In this document: positions 38,755 to 41,930 of the stretch, in pieces
Numbering within the stretch: the stretch's first letter is position 1
Layout of the letters: each line of letters starts with the position of its first letter
From: an uncultured Pelagibacteraceae bacterium
Lineage (GTDB): Bacteria; Pseudomonadota; Alphaproteobacteria; Pelagibacterales; Pelagibacteraceae
Direction: 5' to 3'
Assembly (NCBI GenBank): GCA_902555655.1
Contig: CACDSX010000003.1
Coordinates: forward strand, 1 to 64,000
Length of the DNA stretch: 64,000 bases
Notes under the pieces: generated by a model
Seen by the model: the letters and a program-made list of their open reading frames with translations, nothing else
Told to the model about the DNA's origin: nothing
Databases searched by the model: none
Program-made: the position numbers and the translations under genes

Positions 38755-39558
38755 ATGAAAATATTATTTTTGGGAGATGTTGTTGGAATTTCGGGTTGTT
38801 CAAAGATAATGAACAACCTTCTTAATCAAATAAAACTTAATAAAATCAATTTTGTGATTGTGAATGCTGAAAATGCTGATGAGACAGGAGTAGGGTTGAC
38901 TAAAGAAATTTGCGAAGATTTTTATAGATGTGGAGTTGATGTGATTACCACAGGTAATCATGTTTGGGATCAAAAAGATATAATGAATTTTATTGATAAT
39001 GAAAATCGATTGCTAAGACCGAAAAATTTATTTGAACCAGCACCTGGTAGAGGTTTTGAAATTTATACTACTTCTGACAATACAAAAATTGGTGTACTTA
39101 ATTTAATGGGTAATGTTTTTATGAAAAAATGTGATGATGTTTTTGAGACTTCAAAAAAATTTATGGAAAAATATAAATTAAAAGAAGACTATGATTTTTT
39201 AATAGTTGATTTTCATGGAGAAATCACAAGTGAAAAAAATGCTATAGGACATTATTTTGATGGTAAGGCCACGTTGGTAGTTGGTACTCATACACATGTA
39301 CCAACTAATGACGCGAGAATTTTAAGTAATGGAACAGCTTACCAGACAGATGCTGGTATGTGCGGTGATTATGATTCAGTTATTGGGATGAATAAAAATA
39401 ATTCATTAAATAGATTTATGAAAAAAGACTCTGTAAAACATTTTCCAGCGAAAGGAGAAGCTACTTTAAGCGGTGTAATTGTTGATTGTGATATAAAAAC
39501 TGGATTAGCAAACAAAATAGACAGCTATATTTTTGGAGGTCAGTTAAGCAAAACTTAG
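38755..39558 (+). CDS. YmdB family metallophosphoesterase
   Basis: KILFLGDVVGISGCSKI; VNAENADETGVGLT; TTGNHVWDQKDI; VVGTHTHVPTND. Confidence 0.92.
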   Translation: MKILFLGDVVGISGCSKIMNNLLNQIKLNKINFVIVNAENADETGVGLTKEICEDFYRCGVDVITTGNHVWDQKDIMNFIDNENRLLRPKNLFEPAPGRGFEIYTTSDNTKIGVLNLMGNVFMKKCDDVFETSKKFMEKYKLKEDYDFLIVDFHGEITSEKNAIGHYFDGKATLVVGTHTHVPTNDARILSNGTAYQTDAGMCGDYDSVIGMNKNNSLNRFMKKDSVKHFPAKGEATLSGVIVDCDIKTGLANKIDSYIFGGQLSKT

Positions 39559-39565
39559 CAAACTT

Positions 39566-40288
39566 ATGGCAGGACATTCTCATTGGGCAGGTATAAAACA
39601 TAAAAAAGGTAAAGCTGATAAACAGAGATCAAAAATTTTTTCAAAATTATCTAAAGAAATAACTGTAGCAGCAAAGCTGGGCGATAGAGAGCCAGATATG
39701 AACCCAAGACTAAGATCTGCAATTCAAGCTGCAAGGTCTGCAAATATGCCTAAAGAGAATATTGAAAGAGCAATAGATAAATCCTCTATTAGCACTGAAT
39801 CAAATTTTGAAAATTTGAGATATGAAGGCTTTGGTCCTGATAAAGTTGCGGTCATTGTAGAAGCATTAACAGATAATAAAAATAGAACCGCCTCTAACAT
39901 TAGAACTATCTTTCAAAAAGCAGGTGGTAGTCTTGGCACTCAGGGATCTGCTGCACATAATTTTAATCAATTAGGTATTATTAAAATTGACAAAAAAGAG
40001 ATTTCTGATGAAAATATTTTTGAATTAGCTATTGAAGCTGGTGCCGATGAATGTGTATCAAATAATGATTTTCATGAGATACAGTGTCCAATGAATGATA
40101 TTTATAATGTTAAAAAACAATTAGAAAAAAAAATTAGTAATTTTATATCAACAGATATTGAGTGGCGTCCATTTAATAGTATAAAAATTTCTAAAGAAAA
40201 ACGTGATATCTTAATTAATTTTTTTGAAACTTTAGAGGAAGATGACGATGTACAAAATATTTATTCGAATGTTGAATTTGCAAAGTAA
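39566..40288 (+). CDS. yebC: YebC/PmpR family transcriptional regulator
   Basis: MAGHSHWAGIKHKKGKADKQRSKIFSKLSKEI. Confidence 0.97.
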   Translation: MAGHSHWAGIKHKKGKADKQRSKIFSKLSKEITVAAKLGDREPDMNPRLRSAIQAARSANMPKENIERAIDKSSISTESNFENLRYEGFGPDKVAVIVEALTDNKNRTASNIRTIFQKAGGSLGTQGSAAHNFNQLGIIKIDKKEISDENIFELAIEAGADECVSNNDFHEIQCPMNDIYNVKKQLEKKISNFISTDIEWRPFNSIKISKEKRDILINFFETLEEDDDVQNIYSNVEFAK

Positions 40289-40291
40289 AAT

Positions 40292-40786
40292 ATGTTAATT
40301 ATTGGTATAGACCCTGGCATATCTGGATCAATTTGTTTTTTTGAAAATGGTAAGATTCTTGATGTTATTGAAATGCCAACTATGACAGACGGGAAAAAAA
40401 ATAAAAGACAGGCTAATGGTTCTCAAATTTATAATGAAATAATAAAAAGAATTAATAAAACTGAAGAACAAAATGTTAGGGTAATTATTGAACAAGTGTC
40501 TGCAATGCCTGGTCAAGGAGTTACAAGCATGTTTAACTTTGGACAATCTTTTGGAATTTTAAAAGGCATATGTTCTGCAATGCAATTACCTATGTATTTT
40601 GTTAGGCCAGCTAAATGGAAAAAATATTTTGGTCTAATAAATTCAGAAAAGGATGCTAGTAGGACAAAGGCAATAGAAATGTTTCCATATTTTTCGTCTC
40701 AACTTTCAAAAAAAAAAGACTCAAACAAAGCAGATGCAATATTAATTGCTAGTTTTTATCATGAAACTTATAAATTTGAGGATTAA
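40292..40786 (+). CDS. RuvC-like Holliday junction endonuclease, phage-type
   Basis: IIGIDPGISGSICFFENG; VIIEQVSAMPGQGVTSMFNFGQSFGIL; SNKADAILIA (RNase H fold acidic residues). Confidence 0.8.
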   Translation: MLIIGIDPGISGSICFFENGKILDVIEMPTMTDGKKNKRQANGSQIYNEIIKRINKTEEQNVRVIIEQVSAMPGQGVTSMFNFGQSFGILKGICSAMQLPMYFVRPAKWKKYFGLINSEKDASRTKAIEMFPYFSSQLSKKKDSNKADAILIASFYHETYKFED

Positions 40787-40837
40787 TTTAATAAACTTAA
40801 GACAAATTCATGACACAATTAAGTGTGAGAAGGCCAT

Positions 40838-41512
40838 ATGGAAGCTGATATTTCATCTCAAGCAGTAGGTTTAGCATCAAGTGCTGATTTTTCTTTATTA
40901 AATTTATTCATTCGTGCAGACATTATAGTTAAATCAGTAATCATTTTATTGATTGCTTGTTCAATTTATTCATGGGCAGTAATTATAGAAAAATTGAGAC
41001 TATTTAAAAAAATAAATTTATCTACAGAAGAGTTTGAAACAAAGTTTTGGAACTCAAAATCTGCAGAGTCATTTTATAATAATCTTCCCGCAAATACAGA
41101 AGATCCGATGGCTTTAGTTTTTAAAGATGCAATGCAAAATTTATTGAAAAGAAAATCAAAAACCGATTTACATGATAGAATGACAACAATGCTGGAGACA
41201 GGAATTGAAAAACAAATGTCCAAAATAAGTAAAGGCTATACTTTTTTAGCAACAGTTGGTTCAACCGCTCCCTTTATTGGTTTATTTGGAACGGTTTGGG
41301 GAATAATGAATTCATTTCAATCTATTGCAATTTCAAGAAATACTAGTTTAGCAATAGTAGCTCCAGGTATTGCTGAAGCTCTTTTCGCAACAGCATTGGG
41401 ATTGTTGGCTGCAATACCAGCAGTTATTGCTTATAATAAATTTAATAATGACTCAATTTTGTATTCAAGAAAATTAGAAAATTTCTCAAAAAGATTTTTA
41501 ACAATAATTTAA
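40838..41512 (+). CDS. tolQ: Tol-Pal system protein TolQ
   Basis: FLATVGSTAPFIGLFGTVWGIMNSFQSIA...IAPGIAEALFATALGLLAAIPAV-type motif. Confidence 0.95.
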   Translation: MEADISSQAVGLASSADFSLLNLFIRADIIVKSVIILLIACSIYSWAVIIEKLRLFKKINLSTEEFETKFWNSKSAESFYNNLPANTEDPMALVFKDAMQNLLKRKSKTDLHDRMTTMLETGIEKQMSKISKGYTFLATVGSTAPFIGLFGTVWGIMNSFQSIAISRNTSLAIVAPGIAEALFATALGLLAAIPAVIAYNKFNNDSILYSRKLENFSKRFLTII

Positions 41513-41513
41513 A

Positions 41514-41930
41514 ATGGCTTTTAAATTAAATCGTTCATCAAAAGAACCAATGAGCGAAATAAATGTTACACCGTTTGTTGATGTAATGTTAGTTCTTTTA
41601 ATAATCTTTATGGTTACTGCTCCCTTATTAACTGTCGGAGTACAAGTAGATTTACCAGAAAGTTCTGCAGACTCTCTTCCCGAAGAAGCTGAACCTCTTA
41701 CTTTATCAATTAACTCTAAAGGAGAAATCTTTATACAAGAATCAAAAGTAGAATATGAAAAAATTATTGCAAAAGTTTTAGCTGTTTCAAAAAATAGAAC
41801 AGATACAAGAATTTATGTACGTGGTGATAAAACAATTAATTATGGAAGAGTACTAGAAATCATGGGTCTATTATCGGGCTCAGGTTTTACCAAAGTAGCT
41901 CTCATATCAGAGCCGTACAAAGAAAGGTAA
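41514..41930 (+). CDS. tolR: Tol-Pal system protein TolR
   Basis: MSEINVTPFVDVMLVLLIIFMVTAPLL. Confidence 0.95.
   Translation: MAFKLNRSSKEPMSEINVTPFVDVMLVLLIIFMVTAPLLTVGVQVDLPESSADSLPEEAEPLTLSINSKGEIFIQESKVEYEKIIAKVLAVSKNRTDTRIYVRGDKTINYGRVLEIMGLLSGSGFTKVALISEPYKER

Follow-up and report, generated by a model that had tools for sequence, protein, structure and literature searches.

A gene located between yebC and tolQ in the genome of an uncultured Pelagibacteraceae bacterium very probably encodes a phage-type resolvase of the RuvC/MOC1 fold, which has taken over the ancestral locus of the canonical ruvC in a lineage that has also lost RuvAB. We named this gene ruvCx. It was found in a window of 64,000 nucleotides, the whole stretch of DNA analysed here, which comes from Ca. 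Pelagibacter (SAR11) and belongs to a draft genome of 980 kb in 44 contigs. Few groups of organisms are as abundant as the SAR11 bacteria, for which high recombination rates are reported; the loss of ruvABC in SAR11 has reportedly been published already. The likely resolvase of SAR11 is identified despite the absence of RuvABC, and it points to a way in which recombination could be completed in bacteria that recombine so often. What is new is that a whole dominant marine family has ruvC displaced at its ancestral locus, and that related families fill this slot with phage-type nucleases of other kinds; a literature search of limited coverage found no report of a replacement in the ruvC slot. 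The sharing of ruvCx by the whole family, its likeness to the chloroplast resolvase MOC1 and the slot nucleases of other families go beyond the original prediction on this DNA, which had proposed a non-orthologous replacement of ruvC in the window.

Position and gene order

The ruvCx gene starts with ATG at position 40292 and its stop codon ends at 40786 (40292–40786), encoding a product of 164 aa. It is located 3 nt downstream of yebC (39566–40288) and 51 nt upstream of tolQ (40838–41512), which is followed by tolR (41514–41930), and a ymdB-type phosphodiesterase gene (38755–39558) precedes yebC. All five ORFs are on the forward strand. The order of tolQ and tolR is kept in the relatives, and that of the ymdB-type gene both in the relatives and at RuvC-bearing loci. 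The ORF between yebC and tolQ, described earlier as a 164-aa RuvC-like gene, is therefore real, and the core motifs quoted for it are found in its protein.

For the control of gene order we used 20 RuvC-bearing alphaproteobacterial loci. yebC adjoins the canonical ruvC in 20 of the 20, ruvA is nearby in 16, and tolQ follows in order further downstream in 14, in agreement with the expected alphaproteobacterial order. The 51-nt gap of the window (40787–40837) is the site of ruvA, ruvB and ybgC in other alphaproteobacteria. The reported lack of ybgC holds for the locus in the window but not for the family, because a YbgC-type thioesterase is encoded away from the ruvCx locus in the closed Pelagibacter genome G012 and ybgC stands beside ruvCx in early-branching genera.

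Family assignment and predicted fold

The ruvCx protein showed no match to the canonical RuvC family PF02075, and with the curated RuvC model NF000711 it scored 18.4 bits, below the cut-off of 163. Its full-length match was PHROG 1770, the phage Holliday junction resolvase family (E 2.1e-35, residues 1–159 on positions 4–150 of the 158-position profile). Through tblastn, relatives of about 40% identity were detected in cultured-phage genomes. A scan of viral contigs with the single ruvCx sequence gave no relatives, but the alignment-based scan recovered them, with identity up to about 46%. The phage resolvases of PHROG 1770, such as the proteins of epsilon15 and PaV-LD, have in common with ruvCx the sequence family, the length, an AMPGQG-type recognition loop and the catalytic D/E/D residues; unlike these phage genes, ruvCx is a fixed chromosomal core gene at the ruvC slot.

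A sequence search against solved structures ranked MOC1, the chloroplast resolvase of plants, first (E 7e-13), and a profile search matched NtMOC1 with E 8e-16. The AlphaFold2 model of the protein had a pLDDT of 79; its best match in the PDB was a MOC1–junction complex (TM 0.79), and solved bacterial and phage RuvC structures followed with TM of 0.55–0.68. The protein is predicted to have the RNase H/RuvC fold, nearest to MOC1 and then to RuvC.

Active site and junction loop

Residues were compared in an alignment of 81 rows, including 20 canonical RuvC, 16 Pelagibacteraceae and 40 phage rows. The equivalents of the canonical catalytic residues were D7 (codon 40310–40312), E67 (40490–40492) and D148, the last one included in the segment D143-S144-N145-K146-A147-D148 (40718–40735), all on the forward strand. 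D7 (RuvC D7, MOC1 D116) and E67 (RuvC E66, MOC1 E175) are invariant across all 81 rows, and position 148 (RuvC D141, MOC1 E258) is always D or E; all three are invariant among the Pelagibacteraceae rows.

E. coli RuvC has four catalytic carboxylates (D7, E66, D138 and D141) and an aromatic wedge, F69. Three of these carboxylates are kept in ruvCx, and the D138 position is N145. This column is D in 20 of 20 canonical RuvC and N in 16 of 16 Pelagibacteraceae, and mostly G or A in phages. The wedge is replaced by the residues M72-P73-G74-Q75-G76 (40505–40519, forward strand), a predicted junction-recognition loop with a phage-type signature: column 72 is F or Y in all 20 canonical rows, and M in all 16 Pelagibacteraceae rows and 37 of the 40 phage rows. 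Q75 is shared with 37 of the 40 phage rows and W109 with all 40, so that ruvCx carries the M-P-x-Q-G loop signature and the W109 of the PHROG 1770 family. With R124, the phage-type signature residues of ruvCx are M72, P73, Q75, G76, W109 and R124.

The catalytic tetrad of MOC1 is composed of D116, D118, E175 and E258, with D253 dispensable, and its loop contains the aromatic wedge Y180 and the cytosine-reading D183 (PMC7078210). The tetrad positions correspond to D7, G9, E67 and D148 in ruvCx, and the D253 position to D143. Three metal ligands of ruvCx are thus clear, while the fourth is uncertain, since G9 stands at the position of MOC1 D118 and N145 at that of the fourth carboxylate of canonical RuvC. 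In the loop, Y180 and D183 of MOC1 are replaced by M72 and Q75. The predicted junction-reading loop is therefore unlike that of both RuvC and MOC1, and the C-C site preference of MOC1 need not hold for ruvCx.

Phylogeny and direction of transfer

In the tree, the Pelagibacteraceae ruvCx sequences formed one clade (support 100/98) placed among phage sequences. Canonical RuvC formed a separate clade (100/100), and a branch of 100/100 support put ruvCx on the side of the phages and MOC1. Some rows of the tree were atypical in composition.

A vertically inherited RuvC, which diverged quickly in an AT-rich streamlined lineage and came to look phage-like through convergence or a long-branch effect, could account for the position of ruvCx at the ruvC locus and for the retention of D7, E67 and D148, and the atypical rows would suit it. 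Such an origin predicts grouping with alphaproteobacterial RuvC; this topology, which had been named in advance as the one that would speak against a replacement, was rejected by the AU test (p=9e-8, lnL 115 worse). A topology with Pelagibacteraceae as the first branch of the phage side, beside all canonical RuvC including that of E. coli, was not rejected (p=0.31), which counts in favour of vertical descent. The six phage-type residues are present while the fourth carboxylate and the wedge of canonical RuvC are missing, and the slot is known to be replaceable, as an unrelated nuclease occupies it in the sister family. We consider vertical descent very unlikely.

The PHROG match, the phage tblastn matches, the residue signatures and the tree agree in supporting the placement of ruvCx with phage-type RuvC, as its core motifs had first suggested, rather than with the housekeeping form. 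Compared with canonical RuvC, it shares the RNase H fold, the equivalents of D7, E66 and D141 and the genomic locus, but it falls under the family cut-offs, has neither the fourth carboxylate nor the aromatic wedge nor RuvAB partners, and belongs to a separate clade. Replacement of ruvC by a non-orthologous gene at the ancestral locus is supported by the AU test, the family match and the conserved locus.

The transfer was likely from phage to bacterium. This direction is short of proof, because the AU test also accepts Pelagibacteraceae as the first branch of the phage-type side (p=0.31), and the nearest viral relatives, only about 46% identical, are too distant to point to a donor.

Conservation across Pelagibacteraceae

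ruvCx was present in every Pelagibacteraceae genome with an intact locus, and at the loci read it had yebC upstream and tolQ–tolR downstream. Dozens of independent assemblies, from single cells as well as isolates and with closed genomes among them, had it at the same position. The dN/dS of ruvCx was 0.03–0.06 in unsaturated pairs, similar to that of yebC and tolQ, and the gene is under purifying selection. If ruvCx were the remnant of a recent prophage or an artefact of assembly, this would explain its phage-type sequence and nothing else; with such conservation, and with tol and housekeeping genes as neighbours, this explanation was ruled out, and its probability is close to nil.

We checked the apparent absences of ruvCx in near-complete genomes. 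Five assemblies lacked yebC too, two ended within the locus, and one (G574) was frameshifted. In G574, frameshifts break ruvCx, tolQ and tolB alike, and are probably sequencing errors rather than marks of pseudogenes.

The early-branching genera (loci L283, L284, L292 and L293) have the order yebC–ruvCx–ybgC–tolQ. This is the order expected from an in-place replacement of ruvC followed by a later loss of ybgC at the locus. The replacement would date from the common ancestor of Pelagibacteraceae or from an earlier time. The closed genome G488 is assigned to the same genus, and its ruvCx is just 61% identical and near the base of the family; G488 is possibly misassigned or an early lineage.

Loss of RuvABC and remaining recombination proteins

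We found no RuvC (PF02075) and no RuvA (PF01330) in 101 close relatives, 22 of which were at least 90% complete. Matches to RuvB_N in these genomes were weak (25–35 bits) and came from ORFs whose sizes are unlike RuvB, and they are probably other AAA+ proteins. The closed genome G012 was read nearly in full, with 5000 masked bases in a count made across pieces that overlap. Searched with E. coli proteins, it contained counterparts of RecA (1e-147), RecG (1e-110), PriA (4e-101) and YqgF (2e-8), and none of RuvA, RuvC or RusA; RuvB had only a match of 6e-4, and the match of RadA was partial and C-terminal. Judging by these weak AAA+ matches, no credible RuvB was found in the relatives or in G012. 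A possible loss of RuvAB near the locus had been proposed; the loss turned out to be stronger than that, genome-wide and not just local, and the search for ruvA, ruvB and a second resolvase gave neither RuvA (101 relatives and G012) nor a credible RuvB, nor RuvC or RusA in G012. In a survey of 385 alphaproteobacterial genomes, 32 had no RuvC, 40 had no RuvA, and 28 had neither when the two lists were compared.

A phage-derived gene might also be kept for another purpose, for example to defend the cell against phages or to interfere with their DNA, with junctions resolved in another way. The phage-type sequence agrees with this, the resolvase activity of ruvCx is a prediction from its sequence, and G012 also encodes YqgF (RuvX), which has an RNase H fold as well. 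Defence genes are patchy, whereas ruvCx is a single core copy in a housekeeping operon family-wide, selected as strongly as yebC and tolQ; it also occupies the ruvC slot in genomes where RuvC and RusA are absent. A role of this kind seems improbable to us.

As a resolvase, ruvCx would act as a homodimer that opens the four-way junction. The loop M72...Q75 would be inserted into the junction where canonical RuvC uses its aromatic wedge, and two opposing strands would be nicked with the help of metal ions bound by D7, E67 and D148. Loading by RuvAB would not take place, and we infer that ruvCx is self-sufficient; MOC1 is not known to need RuvAB either. Branch migration might be left to RecG, the one known enzyme of this function that is still encoded, whose presence suggests that it could substitute for RuvAB and be coupled to ruvCx.

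Other occupants of the ruvC slot

We inspected the sequence that follows yebC directly at loci of RuvC-less families. Six further families without RuvC (f2, f25, f142, f32, f51 and f119) contained a phage-type resolvase-like gene in this slot. The label of resolvase for these proteins comes from family names and should be taken as putative.

The sister family f2 (L035–L038) has a nuclease of 123–127 aa between yebC and tolQ, which matches PDDEXK_15 above the cut-off; the 43 genomes in which it was detected all belong to f2. The search for phage relatives gave a single one, a Roseobacter phage gene (51% identical) annotated as Holliday junction resolvase. PDB profile matches of this nuclease were designed repeat proteins and were discarded, and its structure model (pLDDT 43 from 4 sequences) was not used. 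In f51 (L261–L263), a 168-aa PDDEXK_15 protein follows yebC, with phage relatives at 45%, several of them recorded as resolvases. Downstream, f51 has tilS-like and ftsH-like genes where the tol genes would be expected. The families f25, f142 and f32 (L265–L272), the last of which we take to be the HIMB59 family, have in common a slot protein of about 100 aa belonging to the resolvase-like PHROG 2002; it is 59–72% identical between families and has two phage relatives (45–47%). The start codon of the gene at L269 is apparently GTG. The slot proteins of f2 and of f25, f142 and f32 show weak mutual similarity (about 30%), and a common origin is possible.

These PD-(D/E)XK phage resolvase-like nucleases (PDDEXK_15, PHROG 244 and PHROG 2002) are alternative occupants of the same slot after yebC in RuvC-less alphaproteobacterial families other than Pelagibacteraceae. 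By family assignment they belong to another fold class, and no homology to ruvCx was detected.

Family f119 (L276, G218) has the order yebC–phage-type RuvC–ybgC–tolQ and groups with RuvC-bearing lineages. Its RuvC-like protein is apparently a separate acquisition. A single acquisition in common with ruvCx was rejected by the AU test (p=9e-4), in which the G218 row was long-branched.

In a five-gene tree, Pelagibacteraceae (f1) and f2 were sisters (100/100), and the deeper branches were weak and composition-biased. The four slot states require at least five changes on this tree. A cautious count gives at least four likely displacements: one in f1, one in f119, one in f51, and one for f2, f25, f142 and f32.

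We tentatively propose, with slightly less than even confidence, that the slot between yebC and tolQ is a place where canonical RuvC and RuvAB were repeatedly swapped for one small phage-type resolvase during genome shrinkage, selected since it is independent of RuvAB, and that Pelagibacteraceae, their sister f2, the HIMB59 group and further families each went through this independently. A pathway of one enzyme plus RecG would then underlie the high recombination of SAR11. If true, this would be a clear case of a housekeeping enzyme giving way to viral enzymes again and again at one locus, and it would suggest that the resolvase is the part that must stay while the RuvAB motor is dispensable.

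Displacement is no automatic consequence of RuvC loss, since no slot nuclease was found in the RuvC-less genomes G234 (f135), G309 (f104), G298 (f150) and the closed 1.5-Mb genomes G312 and G402. In the latter two (f108; loci L279 and L278), RuvC and RuvA are absent, and the region between yebC and ybgC contains no sizeable ORF and has 27–29% GC. A 5.6-Mb genome of the same genus (G480) kept the genes, and the slot in G402 and G312 looks like decay without replacement.

Relatives of the phage-type RuvC also occur in other alphaproteobacteria that keep the canonical RuvC (L288 in G294 and L287 in G412). The recombinase- and integrase-like neighbours of these copies suggest that they are on mobile elements.
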